From Candidatus Desulfofervidaceae bacterium (lineage in GTDB: Bacteria; Desulfobacterota; Desulfofervidia; Desulfofervidales; Desulfofervidaceae): 64,000 nucleotides of DNA. The position numbers were made by a program, and so were the translations under genes. The notes under the pieces are model-generated. The model worked only from the letters and a program-made list of their open reading frames with translations. It was not told where the DNA came from and searched no databases. How positions within the stretch are numbered: the stretch's first letter is position 1; each line of letters starts with the position of its first letter. The stretch covers positions 62,001-126,000 of the forward strand of contig JALWFG010000011.1 of NCBI GenBank assembly GCA_027038965.1, in the 5' to 3' direction. Positions 42,980 to 58,975 of the stretch are shown piece after piece.

Positions 42980-44578
42980 ATGTTTCCTAATTCAGGATTT
43001 GCCTTTCATAGCCAGGGCAAATATTCTTTGGCAGTGCTCTTTTTTAGAGGCCTCCTAGTTGCGATTTTAGTTTTAGTTTTTCATCTTGGATATGCCTTCG
43101 ATTCTGGGCTTCAGGAAAAATATGACCAGGGGATGGAGTATTTTCACCAAGGTCGATATCAAAAGGCCCAAGAGGTTTTTAAAAAAATCATTACTCAGGA
43201 CCCTAGCGAAGCCAAGGTTTACAACGATTTAGGTATGACCTATGTGAAAACCGGTCATTTGAAGAAGGCAGTTGAGGTTTGGGAAAAAGGGCTTAATGTA
43301 AATCCTTCCTTTCTTACCATTCGCTATAATTTGGTGAAGGCATACATTGATATCCATAATTACGACAAGGCCATTATTCATTTAAAGTTCATTATAAACA
43401 ATTTTCCCAAAGAAGCCAAGGCGTACAATACCTTAGGGGTCGTTTATTGGATTCAAGGGAGGCTTGAGGAGGCAGAGGCTGCTTTTAAAAAGGCAATTTT
43501 GATAGAACCTAGTTATAAAATAGCTCATTTCAATTTGGCTCGCCTTTATTTAAAAAAGGCCATTTTAGAATATCAAGTTCTTTACAAGAGTGAGCAGAAT
43601 AACGCTAAATTGAGGGAGGAATATAAGCGGATTCTCAAGGTAAATCCTCAGGATGCTAAGTCTCACTTCCTTTTGGGGCAGCTTTATCTTCAAGAGGGTA
43701 ATTTTGAGCAGGCAATAAGTGAATACCGCCTAGCTGCGAGATTAGACGAAACTTATGGATATTCCCTTTTTATTCATAAAGCAATCGAAGCTCGAAGCCA
43801 AGGAGACATTCAAAGGGCCATCCAGAACTATAAAATTGCCTTAAATTTGGTATCTAATTCCAAAAAACAAAAGCAGGCAAGACAGATTTATTATGAATTG
43901 GGCAAACTCTATTATCTCTCCCAAAAATATGAAGATGCACTCTTCATGTTTAAAAGGGCCGTTTGTTTATGGCCGAGATATTCATATGTCTATCATTACT
44001 TGGGGTTGACTTATTTTCAACTGGGAGAATATTCCAAGGCAATAGAGGCCTTTAAAAAGGCCATCTTATATGAAAATAATTACAAAAGCCATTATGCCTT
44101 GGCCTCTGTATATGAGAAAACGGGGCAATACCGCTTGGCGCAAAGAGAATACAAACAGGCCATTGTTTTAAATCCAAGACTAAAGGACAAAATAAAAATA
44201 AAATCCATATCTCTGTCTCAAAGATCTACTGCCAGAGGGTTGAACAAAGAAGTTAAAGAATTCATTTCCCATTGGCTTTATCTTTGGCAAAAAAGAAAAT
44301 TTAATGAATATGCTGCCTGTTACAGTGCTCACTTTTACACTAAAGGCAAAAATCTCAGGAAATGGCTGGAGTGGAAAAGACATTTATTTGCGACTCGGAA
44401 GAACGTCAATGTTAAGATAGATAACTTAAGAATTATCCCTGTTAATAAAATAATAATGGCCTGTTTTGACCAAGTTTACCAGGATAATGTCCATATGGAT
44501 AAGGGCCTAAAATGCCTCTATTTACACAAAGCAAGAGAAGGCTGGAAGATTCTTAAAGAGGAATGGCACAAAAAATGA
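42980..44578 (+). CDS. TPR protein with C-terminal NTF2-like domain
   Basis: A 532-residue envelope protein with an N-terminal membrane or signal segment (~20-42). About ten TPR units follow between ~48 and ~415 (GMEYFHQGRYQKAQEVFKKI; NDLGMTYVKTGHLKKAVEVW; YHYLGLTYFQLGEYSKAIEA). The last ~110 residues are not TPR: VKEFISHWLYLWQKRKFNEY, CYSAHFYTKGK and GWKILKEEW match the NTF2-like domain that ends the PilO-PilP fusion at 55298-56506. It may be a pilus or envelope assembly factor; this is inferred from the shared domain. Confidence 0.8.
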   Translation: MFPNSGFAFHSQGKYSLAVLFFRGLLVAILVLVFHLGYAFDSGLQEKYDQGMEYFHQGRYQKAQEVFKKIITQDPSEAKVYNDLGMTYVKTGHLKKAVEVWEKGLNVNPSFLTIRYNLVKAYIDIHNYDKAIIHLKFIINNFPKEAKAYNTLGVVYWIQGRLEEAEAAFKKAILIEPSYKIAHFNLARLYLKKAILEYQVLYKSEQNNAKLREEYKRILKVNPQDAKSHFLLGQLYLQEGNFEQAISEYRLAARLDETYGYSLFIHKAIEARSQGDIQRAIQNYKIALNLVSNSKKQKQARQIYYELGKLYYLSQKYEDALFMFKRAVCLWPRYSYVYHYLGLTYFQLGEYSKAIEAFKKAILYENNYKSHYALASVYEKTGQYRLAQREYKQAIVLNPRLKDKIKIKSISLSQRSTARGLNKEVKEFISHWLYLWQKRKFNEYAACYSAHFYTKGKNLRKWLEWKRHLFATRKNVNVKIDNLRIIPVNKIIMACFDQVYQDNVHMDKGLKCLYLHKAREGWKILKEEWHKK

Positions 44579-50576: not shown

Positions 50577-51782
50577 CTATCCTCTAACTATTTGTCCCAA
50601 TTTAAAAATTGGCAGAAATACAGATAGAAGAATAAATCCAATAATTCCACCCAGAAAGATAATCATTATTGGTTCGAGCATAGTAGTGAGATTCCGAGTG
50701 CTGAGTTTAACTTGTTCTTCATAAAACCTTGCTACCTTTTCAAGCATGGCATCAAGCATACCTGTTTTTTCTCCTGTAGCGGTCATTTGAATAACCAATC
50801 CTGGAAATAATCTTGTTTTTTTTAAGGCTTCAGCCAAGGAATCTCCCTTTTCAACAGAAATAATCACTTCATCCAATCCCAATTCTATAATTTTGTTTTG
50901 AACTACATTTCTGACTAATCTTAGGGTAGAGACTAAAGGGACCCCACTTTTGATGAGAATGGCAAAGGATGTGGCAAACCGTGCCAAGGCCGTTTTTTTT
51001 ATGAGGGGCCCTACAAGGGGTAGCCGGAGTTTTAAAGCATCTAACTGGATTTGAAAATCTTTGTTTCTTTTAAGCCCTAAAAACAAAGATATAAGGGCAA
51101 GAATACCTCCTAGGATAAAAAGGATATTTTGACCAATAGCATGGCTTATTCCCAATAATATTCTTGTAGGTAAGGGCAAGGAGAATTTGAACCGAGCATA
51201 TATTTTTGCAAAAATGGGCACGATTTTGGTTAATAGAAAAAGGATTGCCATTGTAGCAAATAAAATTAGGAATATAGGATAAGTAAGGGCCGACTTTATC
51301 TGTTGTTTTAGGGTATTTATTTCTTCGAGATAGGAAACTAATTGATTTAGGCTTATATCAAGCTGTCCACTGGTTTCCCCGGTCTTAACTAAGGTAACAA
51401 CAAGGGGGTCAAAGATTTGCATTTTGGCTAGGGCTTCAGCGAATGATGCCCCCTGCGAAATTTCTTGGATGATAGAACTGAGAATACCCTTCAAACGTTT
51501 ATTTTCTATTTCTTCGTTCAATCCCTGAAGGGCCGTTATAAGGGGAATTCCAGCTTCTAACATAGCGGCTAGCTGTGAGAATAAAATTAAGAGTTCCTTT
51601 GTCTTAATTTTAGGTCTTAACAATGAATGTCTAAGGGCCTTAGAGGAAGCTTCCTTTACGGTAAGGACAATAAACCCCTGTTTTTGAAGGGTTTCAACGA
51701 GCACCTCCTTACTTTCTGCTTCTAGGCTTCCTTTAATCCTTTTCCCTTGATTGTTAACAATTTTGTATACGAAAGTAGGCAT
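50577..51782 (-). CDS. pilC: PilC/GspF-type inner-membrane platform protein
   Basis: A 401-residue polytopic protein at the end of the pilus operon. Two T2SSF domains are visible, each with a short conserved element (LAAMLEAGIPLITAL; FAILIKSGVPLVSTL). Hydrophobic helices at ~165-190, ~215-240 and ~370-395. It anchors the assembly ATPase and rotates or lifts pilin subunits. It overlaps pilB by one base. Confidence 0.92.
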   Translation of the reverse strand: MPTFVYKIVNNQGKRIKGSLEAESKEVLVETLQKQGFIVLTVKEASSKALRHSLLRPKIKTKELLILFSQLAAMLEAGIPLITALQGLNEEIENKRLKGILSSIIQEISQGASFAEALAKMQIFDPLVVTLVKTGETSGQLDISLNQLVSYLEEINTLKQQIKSALTYPIFLILFATMAILFLLTKIVPIFAKIYARFKFSLPLPTRILLGISHAIGQNILFILGGILALISLFLGLKRNKDFQIQLDALKLRLPLVGPLIKKTALARFATSFAILIKSGVPLVSTLRLVRNVVQNKIIELGLDEVIISVEKGDSLAEALKKTRLFPGLVIQMTATGEKTGMLDAMLEKVARFYEEQVKLSTRNLTTMLEPIMIIFLGGIIGFILLSVFLPIFKLGQIVRG

Positions 51783-53482
51783 TAAACTACCCTCATAACC
51801 TCTTCTATGGTAGTAACCCCTCTCAAAACCTTTTTAATCCCATTTTCTCTAAGACTGCACATTCCTGCCCTCTGGGCCACGTTTCTCATTTCTTCTAAGG
51901 ATGCCTGTTTGAGAATCAAATCTTTAATTTCTGGGGTAATTTCTAAGAATTCATATATTGCCGTGCGTCCAAAGTATCCAGTATACCGACAATGGGGACA
52001 TCCACGTCCCCTAAAAAGGGTTGCCTCCTTTTCTGAATAATCAATACCTAGAGATTTTAAAATTTCAGTTTGGGGAGCAAATGCCTCTTTACATTTGGGA
52101 CATATCTTTCGAACCAACCGCTGAGCGACTACTAAGTTAAGAGAAGCACATACCAAAAATGGTTCTATTCCCATATTTACAAGTCTTATTACTGTACTTA
52201 CTGCATCGTTAGCGTGGAGGGTGCTTAAAACTAAATGCCCTGTAAGGGCCGAGCGTACAGCCATTTCTGCTGTTTCTAAATCTCTAATTTCTCCTACTAA
52301 AATAATATCAGGGTCCTGACGAAGAATTGTTCGTAGGCCTCGTGCAAAAGTAAGTCCTATTTTGGGGTTTATCTGAACTTGTTCTACTCCCTCGAGTTTA
52401 TATTCTACAGGGTCTTCGAGGGTAATGATATTCTTCTCGGGCGTTTTGATAAAATTTATTGCGGCATAAAGAGTAGTGGTTTTTCCACTTCCTGTAGGGC
52501 CTGTAAGAAGAACCATCCCATAAGAGCGCTTTATCCATTTTTTGAATATTTTAATATCGTCTTCTTCAAAACCTATTTCTTCCAGTCCTAAAAGGGCATT
52601 TTTTTCTAACAGGCGAATAACAATCTTTTCGCCAAAAATCGTAGGAAGGGTGGAAACACGTAAATCGACATTGCGATGTTCGTATTCTACAGTAAAACGG
52701 CCATCTTGAGGTAATCTCCTTTCGGCTATATCCATTCCGGCCAGAATTTTGATTCTGGAGATAATGGCATGTTGTAAGTCCTTTGGGGGCGAAAGGATTT
52801 CATGAAGGATACCATCTATCCGGAAGCGAATACTCACGCTGTCTTCACGAGGTGAAATATGAATATCGCTGGCACGTTCTTTGATAGCATCAAAGATAAG
52901 CTGGTTGACAAACTTCACAACCGGAGCCCTATCAACTTGCTCTTTTATAAGTTCTAAGTCAATTTCCTTTTCACTCTTTTCATCTTCTTTTCCCTCTTGA
53001 AGCTGAAATAAATTTTCCAAGGCATCAATGGCCGATTCTTTTTTAGAATACAGTTGGGCAATGGCCTGCTTTAACTTTAACCGAGGGGCAATGTAAAGTT
53101 TGAGTTTTAAATAAGTGAGGTTTTCTATGGCCTCGATGGAGGTTAAGTCTAAGGGATCTGCTGTCACAATATGTAAAAAATCACCTTCTTTTTTTAAGGG
53201 CAAAACCGTATAACGCTCGGCGATATCCTTAGGGATTATTTTAATGGCTTCCCTTTGAGGTCTTACCTCAGAGAGGTTGCAATAGGGGATGTGAAGTTGT
53301 TCGCTGAGTGCCTTGGCAATGTCTTCTTCTTGAATGAATCCAAGTTGAACTAAAATGCTTCCAATTCTTTCTCCTGTTAATTGTTGCCGTTTAATTGCAT
53401 GTTCTAATTGTCCTGGTGTGATGAGTCCCTTTTTTAATAAAACTTCGCCTAACTTAACAGAACTCAAACGGTATTTTTTCAT
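51782..53482 (-). CDS. pilB: PilB/GspE-type assembly ATPase
   Basis: A 566-residue cytoplasmic hexameric motor. N-terminal GspE-N domain (~1-150). NTPase domain: Walker A GPTGSGKTTTLYAA (~327), Asp box IITLEDPVEY, Walker B DPDIILVGEIRDLETA, His box LSTLHANDA. A four-Cys zinc site is present (CPKCKEAF ~460 and CPHCRYTG ~495), as in extension ATPases. It powers pilus or pseudopilus assembly. No PilT retraction ATPase is adjacent. Confidence 0.94.
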   Translation of the reverse strand: MKKYRLSSVKLGEVLLKKGLITPGQLEHAIKRQQLTGERIGSILVQLGFIQEEDIAKALSEQLHIPYCNLSEVRPQREAIKIIPKDIAERYTVLPLKKEGDFLHIVTADPLDLTSIEAIENLTYLKLKLYIAPRLKLKQAIAQLYSKKESAIDALENLFQLQEGKEDEKSEKEIDLELIKEQVDRAPVVKFVNQLIFDAIKERASDIHISPREDSVSIRFRIDGILHEILSPPKDLQHAIISRIKILAGMDIAERRLPQDGRFTVEYEHRNVDLRVSTLPTIFGEKIVIRLLEKNALLGLEEIGFEEDDIKIFKKWIKRSYGMVLLTGPTGSGKTTTLYAAINFIKTPEKNIITLEDPVEYKLEGVEQVQINPKIGLTFARGLRTILRQDPDIILVGEIRDLETAEMAVRSALTGHLVLSTLHANDAVSTVIRLVNMGIEPFLVCASLNLVVAQRLVRKICPKCKEAFAPQTEILKSLGIDYSEKEATLFRGRGCPHCRYTGYFGRTAIYEFLEITPEIKDLILKQASLEEMRNVAQRAGMCSLRENGIKKVLRGVTTIEEVMRVV

Positions 53483-53496
53483 TGTGCACCTTTATT

Positions 53497-55332
53497 TTAA
53501 TCCTCTAGGATTCTTGGAGTTATAAATATGAGCAATTCTTCGTTGGTTTTGCTTTGATGCTCTCCTTTGAAAAAATATCCTAAAAGGGGAATTTTCTCTA
53601 ACCAAGGGACTCCTCTTTTTTCTTTGTTTTGGTTTTCTTTATATAGTCCTCCAATTACAACAGTTTCTCCGTTTCTAACCAATAGAGTTGTGGCCGCCTT
53701 TTTCTTTACAATAGTAGGAGCACCTAGGACTGTCTTGGTGAAATCGGCCTCTTCTTTAGAGGCTAAGATATCCATTTTGATAAGATTTTCAGAAATAATA
53801 TGAGGTTTTATTTTTAGTTCGAGCAAGGCATCAATCCAAGATAGAGTAGGATAAGCCTCGGTCGTGCCTGGTAGAGGAGTAAGTTCTTGATAGGGAATAC
53901 GACGCCCACTTTCTATAACAGCTTCTTTGTTATCCATAGTAGCAATTCTAGGACTGGAAAGAATTTTTACCTTTCCTTGAGATTCAAGGGCAAGCAGTTT
54001 GGCATCTATATTAAAGGTGTTACCTGTTAATTTAGTAAAACTTAAATCAAGACCCCCAGTAGGGTTGTTTTGGGTCGAAATAGGTAAGTTGACTATGTTG
54101 CCATTTGCTGCCCCCGAAATTCCCACAGACCCAATTTGGGCGTTGGTCCCCCATTGAATTCCTAATTCTCTTTCAGAATCTGTACTGATCTCCGCGATTC
54201 GGGCTTCAATTACAACCTGAGGAATCTTGACATCCAATTGCCTGATAATTTGCACAATTTGAGATATATTTTGCTTAACATCACAAATAATAAGGGCATT
54301 TTTGTCTTTGTTTACTTGAATGAACCCATAGGGTTTACCATCAAGGTCTTTGCTTAAAAAGGGTTCCAAATTTTTCTTTAATTCTTCTGCATCCAAATAT
54401 TTTACCGGTTGCACCCACGTAATTAAGGGTTGAGCAATCTTCTGAGCCTTCTTAAGCTTGGTTTCCACCTCTAAGCTGAGCTTGGCTGCTTGTTCTTTTT
54501 CCTCAAGTTCCATCTTCTTTACTTGGGCCTCAATCCGCCTCAGGGCCAGTTCCTTTTTCTTCTCTTTTTCATAAGTCTCATTGGTAACAATCCGAATTAA
54601 ATTGCCCATTTTTGAGGCTACCAACTCATGAGAAACCAATATGGAGCGAAAGGCTTCATTCCAAGGAACATTGTTCAAATGGATGCAGATTTTCCCCTTT
54701 ACCTTTTTGCCAAAAACAACATTTAAACCTGCCTCTTTGGCCATCCACCTTAAAACAGACCTGAGATCAGCTTGATCAAAATCAATAGAGATCAAATCTT
54801 GCGGATATTCATCACGTTTGGTTTCCTCTTTTTTAGGAATAGGCTGTGGTAAAGGCTTATATTTGATAAGGCCAGGGGGTACAGAGATCGAAGCTGGCTT
54901 TAAGGGAGTTAGTTCTATAACCAGACCGTTGTTTTGTGGAAAAACATTTCTTCTTAAGGGTTTTGTTAGGTAAGCAATAAACTTTACAATGTTATCTGAT
55001 GCCATAGAGTGGATCACAATAGTTTTAATACCCCAATTATTCAAGTTTTTACTTCTTATTGTAGGATCAATCCTTGCCCCAGAAATTTCTAGGACAAGTC
55101 TTGAGGGATTAAGAAGTTCATAGAGGGTATAGGCAAAAGGCTGGGTGGCCACAACTTGCCATCTTATTTTATCCTTTTGAACCTTTATTTTCATGTTGGT
55201 AATTAAAGGAATTTGGGACTTGGGAGTCTTATAAGACAAATTGACCTTTTGTTCAGGGGCACAGGCTGAGAGAAGAAAAAGGAGTATTATAAGGATTTTA
55301 ATTTGGTATTGGTTGCCAACTTTCTTTAACAA
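53497..55332 (-). CDS. pilQ: Secretin lipoprotein (PilQ/MshL family)
   Basis: A 611-residue outer-membrane ring protein. A lipobox LLSAC marks it as a lipoprotein with Cys near residue 24. Next come an AMIN domain (~50-150), an STN/N0 domain (IDFDQADLRSVLRWMAKEAG, ~185-260), a charged helical linker, an N1 domain and the secretin core (~375-610) ending PLLGYFFKGEHQSKTNEELL. Start TTG with GGGGAG upstream. It overlaps the PilO-PilP gene by 35 bases. A lipidated secretin is typical of MshL-like proteins. Confidence 0.92.
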   Translation of the reverse strand: MLKKVGNQYQIKILIILLFLLSACAPEQKVNLSYKTPKSQIPLITNMKIKVQKDKIRWQVVATQPFAYTLYELLNPSRLVLEISGARIDPTIRSKNLNNWGIKTIVIHSMASDNIVKFIAYLTKPLRRNVFPQNNGLVIELTPLKPASISVPPGLIKYKPLPQPIPKKEETKRDEYPQDLISIDFDQADLRSVLRWMAKEAGLNVVFGKKVKGKICIHLNNVPWNEAFRSILVSHELVASKMGNLIRIVTNETYEKEKKKELALRRIEAQVKKMELEEKEQAAKLSLEVETKLKKAQKIAQPLITWVQPVKYLDAEELKKNLEPFLSKDLDGKPYGFIQVNKDKNALIICDVKQNISQIVQIIRQLDVKIPQVVIEARIAEISTDSERELGIQWGTNAQIGSVGISGAANGNIVNLPISTQNNPTGGLDLSFTKLTGNTFNIDAKLLALESQGKVKILSSPRIATMDNKEAVIESGRRIPYQELTPLPGTTEAYPTLSWIDALLELKIKPHIISENLIKMDILASKEEADFTKTVLGAPTIVKKKAATTLLVRNGETVVIGGLYKENQNKEKRGVPWLEKIPLLGYFFKGEHQSKTNEELLIFITPRILED

Positions 55333-56506
55333 TTTTCCACTCCCCGCTTTCTTTTTTAAGAAGTAATATTTTTAGCCCTACATCTGAATATTTATCCGTA
55401 ACAAAGTGTTGTTTAAAGGTAACTTCTATGCAGTCATGTTTTTGCCTTTGCTTGAAGTCCGACAGGGTTATCTTTATTTGATGATATCGTTTAAATAGCC
55501 CTTTTTTATAGTTTGCCCATGCTTTTCTATCCATACCTCGGAAGGAGAAGTTAGAGGCATAGCATTGCAAATAGCCTTCTATATCTTTGTTTTCCCATGC
55601 TTGCTTCCATTTGTTAATAAATTTTGTAATATCTTCAGAAATTTGAGCAATCCTTGGCAGTTCGGTTTTTGTTCCAGGCTTTAAGACAATGTAATTTCCA
55701 TTACCAAACAAAACTACCCGATCTTTGCCAATGAAATACACTTTGTAGCCTTTAATTACCTCTCCTTTTTTGACAACCTTGGTGTTAATCATGGCTTCAT
55801 AGATATTTTTATATCTCATTATCCCCTGTAAAGAGATAAGAATCCTATTGGAAGGCAGTTTTTTCTGTGAAGCTTGAGACTTAAGGATGTAAGTGGAAAA
55901 GGGATCCCTTTTGGTTTTAGGAAATCTAGGGAGAGGTGTTTTTATCTTTATTTGAGAAAAGTTTTTGCCCTTCATTTCAATGCTGTTTAACTCTACTGTT
56001 AGTATGGGCGTAGGTTTACTTGGGTCTTTAATAACATTTATCTTTTCAACATTAAGTCCTAGGGTATATTCCAAATCTTTTAAAAGAGACAACATCTGAC
56101 TATAGGTGGCCTTAGTTTTTATAATAAAAGGGATTTTGGTAAAATAGCTCGTTTCTTCTTTAGGTAAGGGTTTAATCTGAAAGACTTTTATCTTCTTTGC
56201 ACTGGCCAATGTGGCTATCTTACGTAAGAAAAAAGAGGTCCATTCATGGGGAGACACATGATTAATCTGAAAGAAATTAATTCGGGCAATATTGCCTTGA
56301 GCAAATATTTGTTTTTCTCGCTCAATCTCGGCGCTTAGGTTTTCAACCTGCTGACGCAAAGCCAAGTTTTTCTGTTTCCATCTCTTTAATTCTGCTTTTT
56401 TATGAAAGATAAAGGAAACAATGCCCAAATTTATCCCTAACACAATAACTCCGGTAATCAATAATAAAATATTCTTTTTATTTAGCATATTCTGCTGCCA
56501 ATTCAA
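55298..56506 (-). CDS. Fused PilO-PilP-like protein with NTF2-like C-terminus
   Basis: A 402-residue inner-membrane protein with three parts. PilO-like: one transmembrane helix (~12-32), coiled coil, and a ferredoxin-like fold to ~180. PilP-like: KRDPFSTY linker, then LQGIMRYKNIYEAMINTKVVK and the HR-type strand GYKVYFIGKDRVVLFGNG (~200-290), which in other systems contacts the secretin. NTF2-like: ~300-402 with INKWKQAWENKDIEGYLQCY and GEWKIVKESW. Normally PilO and PilP are separate proteins. A later ATG at 56488 would reduce the 29-base overlap with pilN. Confidence 0.75.
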   Translation of the reverse strand: MNWQQNMLNKKNILLLITGVIVLGINLGIVSFIFHKKAELKRWKQKNLALRQQVENLSAEIEREKQIFAQGNIARINFFQINHVSPHEWTSFFLRKIATLASAKKIKVFQIKPLPKEETSYFTKIPFIIKTKATYSQMLSLLKDLEYTLGLNVEKINVIKDPSKPTPILTVELNSIEMKGKNFSQIKIKTPLPRFPKTKRDPFSTYILKSQASQKKLPSNRILISLQGIMRYKNIYEAMINTKVVKKGEVIKGYKVYFIGKDRVVLFGNGNYIVLKPGTKTELPRIAQISEDITKFINKWKQAWENKDIEGYLQCYASNFSFRGMDRKAWANYKKGLFKRYHQIKITLSDFKQRQKHDCIEVTFKQHFVTDKYSDVGLKILLLKKESGEWKIVKESWQPIPN

Positions 56507-57050
56507 ACAAAAATTTGTTGTTAGAGCGAGGTAGTGGTTGAATCCCTCTCAATTCTACCGATTTTAATCCATATAAAAAACGAGGATTGCTATTCAGGGC
56601 ATAAATCAAATTTCCCACCGCCTCAGGCGGATCTTTTTGGGAGGTGCTTTCTACAATGCCTTTAATGACCAAAATCTTTTGATATCTCTTAGAATCTTGC
56701 TCCTTTTCTACCTTGATTTCTCTCAAATAAATCTCTGGTGGGAGGGCCTTGGCTAAATAGGCAATTTTCTCTGCCCAGTTAAATCTCTCAGCAACTAGGG
56801 CATCTAACACTTCCTTCATATCTCCAATTCGTTCTCGTTGTAGGGAATGCAATCTTGTTATTAATCTTTGATATTCCATTCTTGCCTTGCTAATATTGTC
56901 TTGAAATGGCATATAAAACACGAAATATGCCCAACACAATTCTAATAAGGCAAAGATCAAGATTACAGGTATCCAAAATGAACTTAGTGATAACACATCA
57001 AATGAAGATTTTTCTCTAGTTAGATTGATCTTATATTTAACCTTAGTCAT
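56478..57050 (-). CDS. pilN: PilN-like inner-membrane assembly protein
   Basis: A 190-residue bitopic protein: short cytoplasmic tail with the PilM-binding-type start KYKINLTREKSSFD, one transmembrane helix (~28-50), a coiled coil (~55-95) and a PilN-type periplasmic fold (WAEKIAYLAKALPPEIYLREI). It links PilM in the cytoplasm to the PilO part. The start overlaps pilM by 4 bases. Confidence 0.85.
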   Translation of the reverse strand: MTKVKYKINLTREKSSFDVLSLSSFWIPVILIFALLELCWAYFVFYMPFQDNISKARMEYQRLITRLHSLQRERIGDMKEVLDALVAERFNWAEKIAYLAKALPPEIYLREIKVEKEQDSKRYQKILVIKGIVESTSQKDPPEAVGNLIYALNSNPRFLYGLKSVELRGIQPLPRSNNKFLFELAAEYAK

Positions 57051-58072
57051 CTTATTCCCAATCCCAAGGCTATTGAAAATCGAGTTTTATGTGGTTTTAA
57101 TAAACTTGCAAATTGATTGTCAACTTGAACCCTATGCCAGGGATCAAAAATTTCCACTTCTATCCCTAGCTCCTTTTTGATAAACGATTTAAATTCTAGA
57201 TCCGCATACCCTCCACTTAAAATAATCTTTGCAAAAGTCACCTGTTTATGTTGGTCCTCATAGTAAGTAAGTGCCCTTTTAATTTCAAAAATGACGGGGT
57301 TCCATTCGTTTAACGATTTAACAGTTGGAATAGGGATATAGCGATTTAATAAGGTTTCTCCCTCGGTATAAATATTTAAAAAACCTGTTTGAGCCTCAGC
57401 GTGAAAAAAGACGATTGTTCCTTTAGGTATTAACCTAAAATTAAACAAGTAGGCATTTATCAAGGCTAAAGGGGCTACATCTGTGATTGTCCACCTAATC
57501 TTATGGGTATAAAGAATATTTATAATCCTGTTTAAGTTTTCTTGAGGGATGGCTACCAGGAGGATATCCATTCCACTTCGTTTTTTGGCCAAGATTTGAT
57601 AATCAAACGCAACCGTATCCAACTCGTAAGGAATGTAACGTTTGGCCTCCCAGGCAACAGCATCTCTTAATTCTCGGCGGGAAAGACGCGGCATTTTTAT
57701 TTGTTTGATAATCAAACTAGGGTCATTAAGGCCTATAGTTAATTGATCAACTTTGCCTAAATCTTTAGTGATAAACTTAACTGCTTCGAGGAGTTGCTCT
57801 GATTTAAACTTGACAAATCTAAAGCCTAGAAGTCGAACATAGCCCAATCCCATCTCTAAACCTACCAAAGCGCAATGGTGTTTGGCTATTTCCAGTCCCA
57901 ATTTAAACTTGCTTAAGGGAAAGGGGGCCTTTCTTTTAAGAAAGGGAGAAATAATATTTTCTTCAAACTCTTGTGTTGGCTTAGTTTCTGACTCCTTATC
58001 AGAACCCTGTCGGATTACCTCAAGGAGCCTAGCCGTGGCTGCAAGTTCCTTTTCTTTTTTATCCCTCTGCAT
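57047..58072 (-). CDS. pilM: PilM-like cytoplasmic assembly protein
   Basis: A 341-residue actin-like protein. The first ~45 residues are a charged tail. The fold then shows GLEMGLGYVRLLGF, PRLSRRELRDAVAWEAKRYIP (the PilM family block) and a late GGYADLEF phosphate-2-like loop. PilM binds the N-terminal tail of PilN beneath the inner membrane. Several nucleotide-binding residues look weak, as in MshI-type proteins. It follows the ExeA-like gene by 12 bases. Confidence 0.83.
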   Translation of the reverse strand: MQRDKKEKELAATARLLEVIRQGSDKESETKPTQEFEENIISPFLKRKAPFPLSKFKLGLEIAKHHCALVGLEMGLGYVRLLGFRFVKFKSEQLLEAVKFITKDLGKVDQLTIGLNDPSLIIKQIKMPRLSRRELRDAVAWEAKRYIPYELDTVAFDYQILAKKRSGMDILLVAIPQENLNRIINILYTHKIRWTITDVAPLALINAYLFNFRLIPKGTIVFFHAEAQTGFLNIYTEGETLLNRYIPIPTVKSLNEWNPVIFEIKRALTYYEDQHKQVTFAKIILSGGYADLEFKSFIKKELGIEVEIFDPWHRVQVDNQFASLLKPHKTRFSIALGLGIR

Positions 58073-58084
58073 ATGAACCCTTTG

Positions 58085-58975
58085 TTACTCCCTGTTTTTA
58101 AAAGGTAAAAATCTTCTTTTGGTTGATTTAACCCAGTTTAAAATTCTCCCTGGAGAGTGTTCAGTTGCTTCATCAATAACATGATTTATTACACTTTTGT
58201 CTACAAGCTCCTTTTCTTTGATGAGCATTGAAAGCAATGCCTGGTGACATAGGGTGATTATCCTTCGAGGTTTTCCTTGGGAATAGCGATAGATAAGCTT
58301 GATGGCCTTTTTTGTGAACAGATTTTTTTGAGGAGACAACCCGGCCTTTATTAACCGATATTTTATCATCTCCTCGGTTTCAGATAGGCTTAAGGGTTTT
58401 AAAGTAAAACTAAAATTAATTCTGTCTATAAAGTTCTTTAAATTATTCAACTTTTGGATGATTTCAAGTTGGGCAAAGATAATTATCTGCAGTAACTTGG
58501 ATTCATTTGTCTCATAATTGAGCAAGTTCCGAAGAATTTCCAAGGAATGAACATTTAAATTTTGTCCTTCGTCAATAAAGAGAACTACAATCTTGTTTTC
58601 CTCAATTCCTTTTTGAAAAAGATAGTTTTGTAAGCCCTCCTTTTGGGCCGCCCAACTAGAACTGGTAGTAGAAACCCCAAAGAGATAGAGTAAATGCTCC
58701 AAGAAATCATTGGGGGTATGAAAAATGGGGTCTAGGATAAGGTGAAAGATGAAGCGGTCCCTTTCTTTTGAAAAATGTTTTAATAAAAAACGACTAAGGG
58801 TAGTCTTTCCTGTACCGACATCACCCAGAATTAAGTTAAGCCCTCTTTTTAAACGCAAGGAGATTTCTAGGTTATATATACATTCTTTTAACCGAGGTGA
58901 GAGGTAAAAAAACTCTGGATTAGGGGAATTGGAGAATGGCTCCCTTTGCAAACCTAAGAGTCTATAGTAGCTCAT
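58085..58975 (-). CDS. ExeA/MshM-like AAA ATPase
   Basis: A 296-residue ATPase. It starts YYRLLGLQREPFSNSPNPEF, the ExeA/GspA signature, then Walker A GDVGTGKTTL (~51) and Walker B VVLFIDEGQNL (~130). No peptidoglycan-binding domain follows, which matches MshM rather than full-length ExeA. It likely helps insert the secretin through the cell wall or supports assembly. First gene of the pilus operon, which runs exeA-like, pilM, pilN, pilO-P, secretin, pilB, pilC, close to the msh order. Confidence 0.87.
   Translation of the reverse strand: MSYYRLLGLQREPFSNSPNPEFFYLSPRLKECIYNLEISLRLKRGLNLILGDVGTGKTTLSRFLLKHFSKERDRFIFHLILDPIFHTPNDFLEHLLYLFGVSTTSSSWAAQKEGLQNYLFQKGIEENKIVVLFIDEGQNLNVHSLEILRNLLNYETNESKLLQIIIFAQLEIIQKLNNLKNFIDRINFSFTLKPLSLSETEEMIKYRLIKAGLSPQKNLFTKKAIKLIYRYSQGKPRRIITLCHQALLSMLIKEKELVDKSVINHVIDEATEHSPGRILNWVKSTKRRFLPFKNRE

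Follow-up and report, generated by a model that had tools for sequence, protein, structure and literature searches.

A PilO–HR–NTF2 fusion as a candidate linker of inner membrane, secretin and cell wall in a second type IV pilus-like machine of a Desulfofervidaceae bacterium

In type IV pili, PilN heterodimerises with PilO, and PilP binds both the PilN–PilO pair and the N0 domain of the secretin (PMC5285504), as do the HR domains of GspC and GspB with secretin N0 (PMC3169554, PMC9239104). In the type II secretion system, OutB has an inner-membrane anchor, an HR domain on the secretin and a C-terminal extension on the wall (PMC9239104). The insertion and holding of secretin machines in the peptidoglycan are only partly understood; in the type IVa pilus of P. 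aeruginosa, wall recognition is ascribed to the AMIN domains of PilQ and the LysM domain of FimV (PMC5285504). Here we describe a gene that joins a PilO part, an HR domain and an NTF2-like domain in one polypeptide, encoded in a 64,000-nucleotide stretch of a Candidatus Desulfofervidaceae genome (contig JALWFG010000011.1, positions 62,001 to 126,000; hereafter the window). We propose, with a probability of roughly 0.6, that its product is a one-piece linker of inner membrane, secretin and cell wall in a second type IV pilus-like machine, in which the NTF2 domain binds peptidoglycan. A first-pass annotation of the locus had taken PilO and PilP to be separate in type IV pili, which is not universal, since fusions such as Pseudomonas putida Q88CU9 have been described, and had suggested that fusion would fix their stoichiometry, an argument for 1:1 that has been in print since 2011 (PMC3169554). 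The PilO–PilP fusion and its stoichiometric meaning are already known, and the NTF2 addition is the new part: searches of open-licence PMC papers turned up no earlier description of a pilus linker extended by NTF2. The gene and its parts are as follows.

55298..56506, minus strand: three-part fusion gene PilO–HR–NTF2, 402 amino acids (frame, Pfam and alignment)
55967..56506, minus strand: PilO part, residues 1–180, with transmembrane helix, coiled coil and PilO core (profile and fold matches)
55655..55912, minus strand: HR domain of the PilP/GspC/MshK kind with a leading RDPF motif, residues 199–284 (profile comparison)
55307..55639, minus strand: Cds6_C NTF2-like domain, residues 290–400, with pocket residues Y312, F320, K334, K379 and E395 (Pfam, alignment and fold)

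The frame runs for 402 codons from 56506 to 55298 on the minus strand with zero internal stops, while the plus strand over the same interval is full of stops and holds no open frame. The fusion of three parts in a single frame and its coordinates, both given in the first-pass annotation, are therefore upheld, and the strand is corrected to minus. The start codon is a TTG at 56506, with an alternative ATG 18 nt further in; the TTG overlaps the 3′ end of pilN by 29 nt, and the 3′ end of the fusion overlaps the start of pilQ by 35 nt. In a related genome (G004) a single frame likewise encodes all three parts, 48–49% identical and cut at a contig end, with identities to the protein of the window genome (G000) of 53/100 in the PilO part, 44/87 in the HR part and 45/90 in the NTF2 part. 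Neither chance nor a frameshift artefact accounts for the frame, since G004 shares it, and the idea that misassembly merged neighbouring genes has next to no probability: G004 refutes it, and PilO and HR are joined in no fewer than 9 of 395 genomes. In every relative with the fusion, the parts are connected without an intervening stop codon. A viral or phage origin was rejected, with 0 PHROG families at E≤0.01.

The genome also contains a second, canonical type IVa pilus cluster (G000:C15). Its PilO (198 aa) and PilP (144 aa) are separate proteins, both above their Pfam cut-offs, and served for comparison with the first two parts of the fusion. As a single sequence, the N-terminal part matches Pfam PilO below cut-off (residues 44–144, E 0.003), and among relevant families the sole NCBIfam match of the fusion is a sub-threshold one of GspM type. 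However, a profile of the N-terminal part built from eight relatives matches the PilO of that canonical cluster at 97% (E 9e-11, hhalign), and searches of solved structures gave M. xanthus PilO (E 7e-9, profile search) and a fold match to 2rjz (target-TM 0.66), so that PilO-core homology is found behind a transmembrane helix and coiled coil. The middle part gave no Pfam PilP match even at E≤1 in a single-sequence scan. By profile comparison it matches the canonical PilP of the genome at 94% (E 8.5e-8, hhalign) and, more closely, an HR protein of an MSHA-like cluster (G000:C18) at 98% (E 1e-13), a protein without an NCBIfam match that we label MshK-like from its cluster context. The four mismatched pairings used as profile–profile controls (N-terminal part with PilP, middle part with PilO, and each with PilN) all gave ≤1.1%. 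The middle part, previously described as PilP-like, thus has the HR homology implied by that name, but by its profiles it resembles HR domains of the MshK/GspC type more than canonical PilP, and a strictly PilP identity was rejected on the basis of that closer match. Profile matches to solved structures are weak for this part (GspC, 0.015), and the Foldseek and VIA lists are dominated by NTF2 folds and uninformative on the HR domain, whose absence from them is no evidence. The beta-domain is homologous to that of PilP; PilP is a stand-alone inner-membrane lipoprotein, whereas the HR part lies in a continuous frame with PilO. Its role would be that of PilP, though it is not a protein of its own.

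In the C-terminal part, Pfam Cds6_C (PF24125) covers residues 293–395 (E 4e-20, 72.6 bits against a cut-off of 27), and its relatives among solved structures are accessory domains, those of Bd1075 (7o21, E 4e-21), Pgp2 (6xj6) and Csd6 (4xzz). The domain is a module usually found on cell-wall enzymes of the L,D-transpeptidase fold; among eight hand-picked hosts, the YkuD catalytic domain occurs in six, and the remaining two are a TPR protein and an outer-membrane barrel resembling OprF. The Cds6_C domain of Pgp2 binds peptidoglycan in its pocket, and substitutions of Y233, F242, K257, K307 and E324 impair helical cell shape (PMC8038945). These residues were placed by alignment with Pgp2, the offset being anchored on the residues named in that paper, and correspond to Y312, F320, K334, K379 and E395 of the fusion, identical in 5 of 5 cases. 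The G004 protein retains the first four, its contig ending at the fourth. When 26 other Cds6_C domains were compared with the fusion, these residues took ranks 9, 10, 11, 5 and 1, respectively, in conservation among 116 positions (with some ties); the mean match was 31%. In structural comparison the top row for the NTF2 part is Bd1075 (Z 14.1, 32% identity), and in the second model of the fusion the domain is among the best-predicted regions, at 79–93 pLDDT per ten residues except for the last ten. The role of the domain had been given as unknown in the first-pass annotation, which placed it near the secretin gate; because it belongs to the Cds6_C class, with a peptidoglycan-binding member in Pgp2, it is more probably a wall anchor than a gate component.

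The genome holds three Cds6_C NTF2 domains in all. One of them ends a 532-residue TPR-repeat protein in the window (42980–44578, plus strand; domain at residues 425–528), and ∼6 kb separates its gene from the nearby end of the pilus operon. Proteins of the OmpA type usually carry a peptidoglycan-binding domain at the end of the barrel protein, and the OprF-like barrel of another genome, G035 (L021 745–1845), ends in Cds6_C, which by analogy may lend indirect support to wall binding by this class. In a tree of 28 domains those of G000 and G004 are sisters (support 94/91), and the simplest history is therefore a single acquisition. An attempt to trace the donor with the same tree gave no source, as the deeper branches are without resolution.

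The fusion is the fourth gene of a seven-gene, one-strand operon, whose other members are, in order of transcription:

58085..58975, minus strand: AAA ATPase, ExeA/MshM-like (Pfam/NCBIfam)
57047..58072, minus strand: PilM (Pfam/NCBIfam)
56478..57050, minus strand: PilN (by position; 50% identity with its positional counterpart in G004)
53497..55332, minus strand: PilQ-type secretin (Pfam/NCBIfam)
51782..53482, minus strand: PilB/GspE-type ATPase with an MshE-like c-di-GMP-binding N-domain (domain above cut-off)
50577..51782, minus strand: PilC/GspF-type platform protein (65% identical counterpart beside the G004 pilin set)

The PilN gene has no Pfam match of its own, and its ortholog in G167 has a sub-threshold PilN match. 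The secretin passes the PilQ cut-off (TIGR02515, 324 bits against 284) and stays below those of GspD (223 of 351) and MshL (133 of 250). Its AMIN match is weak (Pfam, E 0.06), and its N0 domain falls at about residues 184–248. The protein is 611 residues long, extended at the N terminus relative to the relatives compared (460–541 residues), and starts with a lipobox-like LLSAC; these features point to a possible lipoprotein secretin that has a wall-binding module of its own. The extension ATPase falls short of two equivalog cut-offs (PilB, 657.8 of 675.65; GspE, 622.2 of 630.25), and the machine may respond to cyclic di-GMP since this ATPase has an N-domain of the MshE type. For the platform protein the best match is GspF, below cut-off (347.6 of 424). 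No PilT is encoded within the operon; a two-gene PilT-family pair is present elsewhere in 5 of 5 genomes searched and probably serves the canonical pilus. A Pfam scan detected no wall-binding domain on the AAA ATPase of the window, and none was shown for the ATPases of G167 and G354, while that of G025 (L095 8860–10566) has a long C-terminal extension with LysM, possibly an alternative wall anchor.

The distribution of the fusion was examined in 395 genomes of the window's phylum with a PilO–HR profile, for which the protein was aligned with those of G004, G025 and G008. Both halves lie in one frame in at least nine genomes: G000, G004, G008, G025, G161, G167, G278 (cut by a contig end), G354 and G392. 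In many others the profile matches separate PilO-sized (∼9–165) and PilP/GspC-sized (∼200–286) proteins. The fusion was not found in G001, of the same genus, or in G002 and G003, of the same family, where separate PilO and PilP are present. The order AAA-M-N-OP-Q-B-C is complete in G167 and G392, where blastp matched every one of the seven genes, and in G025 (PilN by position); G161 has M-N-OP-Q-B-C, and G004, G008, G278 and G354 show parts of the operon, at loci that are masked or limited by contig ends. In addition to its operon copy on another contig (L142), G354 has an orphan PilO–HR fusion (L141 5868–6845), with no other match to the operon proteins of the window in the 14 kb examined. 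A scan of genome contigs returned nine loci, one being the fusion on the G004 contig and eight NTF2 only, with no further fusion.

There are no pilin genes within the operon. The genome has 16 prepilin N-terminal matches above cut-off, including a set (G000:C11, ∼28.1–30.9 kb) ∼80 kb from the operon with one PilA-like and three minor pilins. Among six genomes of the family and order, the largest C11 pilin is present only in G000 and G004, the two that carry the fusion. G004 has a pilin set of the C11 type, 43–57% identical member by member, that adjoins a pilC gene; its product is 65% identical to the PilC of the window and only 29–30% to two further G000 proteins of the GspF/PilC kind used in the comparison. 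We take C11 to be the probable pilin set of the machine because of this shared distribution and of its linkage in G004 to a pilC of the operon type. The comparison of distributions covered two pilin sets, and the other (G000:C5, ∼312 kb) was rejected as cognate, because two genomes in which no fusion was found (G001 and G003) have it and it was not found in G004. Beside the C11 pilins is a pair of two-component genes that resembles PilS/PilR by eye (L175 5031–7744), and the end of a response-regulator-like protein stands at the matching place in G004. Two further secretin clusters are present in the genome, the MSHA-like C18 (L143) and a secretin–GspE–GspF cluster (C4, L144).

We propose that the PilO part would pair with PilN in the inner membrane, that the HR domain, placed in the periplasm, would bind secretin N0 as its relatives do, and that the Cds6_C domain would bind peptidoglycan through its conserved pocket. 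A single polypeptide would keep the secretin and the wall aligned with the inner-membrane platform, an arrangement like that of GspB/OutB in the type II secretion system. Since the AAA ATPase of the window shows no wall domain, the AMIN match of its PilQ is weak and the G025 ATPase has LysM, we propose from these domain contents that the linker carries a wall anchor of its own in NTF2, specific to this lineage. Several observations weigh against this reading. NTF2 is missing from seven of the nine genomes with the fusion (by alignment, and by Pfam for four of the seven) and is therefore dispensable for this type of machine, the three-part gene being confined to G000 and G004, both of Ca. Desulfofervidaceae. 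The AlphaFold model of the fusion is only moderate (pLDDT 75.7, pTM 0.38), so it does not fix the domain arrangement. The NTF2 fold alone is not decisive, because a ketosteroid isomerase-like protein (Z 14.0, 15% identity) matches as well as Bd1075. For Bd1075 itself, what has been demonstrated is that NTF2 directs the protein to the convex cell face, wall binding being suggested only (PMC8938487).

This last point also favours an alternative in which NTF2 is a targeting tag to a cell site such as a pole or curved face, without load-bearing anchoring. W397 of the fusion aligns with W303 of Bd1075, and 14 of the 26 other domains have tryptophan there, but targeting through wall chemistry would itself require wall binding and so overlaps with the anchor; as a separate function we regard it as unlikely. 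Equally improbable, in our judgement, is a self-association module that would di- or oligomerise the linker and set the ring stoichiometry in the manner of hub-type NTF2 domains, with no contact to the wall. CaMKII hub domains are among the fold matches of the model, but at 11–14% identity against 32% for the wall-enzyme NTF2 of Bd1075; moreover, the conserved positions are those of the Pgp2 ligand pocket, and Bd1075 is monomeric (PMC8938487). Contact of NTF2 with the secretin, pilins or a transported substrate is somewhat less probable still: the domain comes immediately after the HR domain and the machine has its own probable pilins, yet the literature consulted on Cds6_C describes no member that binds a secretin or pilin, and seven related machines do without NTF2. 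For the wall-anchor reading in its fullest form the odds are about even, namely that the core linker of a type IV pilus alignment complex, joining PilN, the N0 ring and peptidoglycan, captured its anchor once from an enzyme of the L,D-transpeptidase fold before G000 and G004 diverged.

If the wall-anchor reading is correct, the stoichiometry of PilO, HR and anchor would be set at 1:1:1, the fusion would offer a soluble construct for probing how an alignment complex is anchored to the wall, and pilus machines would join the users of the Cds6_C/NTF2 module. That most related operons lack NTF2, with LysM on the ATPase of G025 instead, suggests that wall anchors are lineage-specific add-ons. Ca. 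Desulfofervidus auxilii, which expresses genes for pili, lives in consortia where nanowire-like structures occur (PMC9539880); these consortia are context only, as the present data give no support for a link of the operon to electron transfer.

Compared with known systems, the protein resembles the fusions of the P. putida Q88CU9 type in having PilO and PilP in one chain, which implies 1:1, and is set apart from them by NTF2, which is not mentioned in their description in PMC3169554. The canonical PilMNOPQ cluster of the genome (C15) has homologous PilM, PilO, PilP/HR and PilQ and the M-N-O-P-Q order in common with the operon, but its PilO and PilP are separate genes without NTF2. The MSHA-like cluster (C18) shares the ExeA/MshM-type ATPase, the MshE-type c-di-GMP domain and the closest HR domain; its HR protein is separate, however, and its secretin scores best as MshL, whereas that of the window passes as PilQ. 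Pgp2 of Campylobacter, Csd6 of Helicobacter and Bd1075 of Bdellovibrio have a domain of the same Pfam type and fold, with pocket residues identical in Pgp2, but the Cds6_C domain of the window is on a pilus linker and without their L,D-carboxypeptidase domain. GspB/OutB is like the fusion in its inner-membrane anchor, N0-binding HR domain and peptidoglycan-attached C-terminal extension. OutB as described (PMC9239104) has no PilO part, its wall-binding extension is not NTF2, and it is an accessory scaffold rather than a member of the alignment complex; because the fusion does contain a PilO part, and so departs from the plan of an HR domain with a wall extension alone, GspB/OutB is its functional analogue only.

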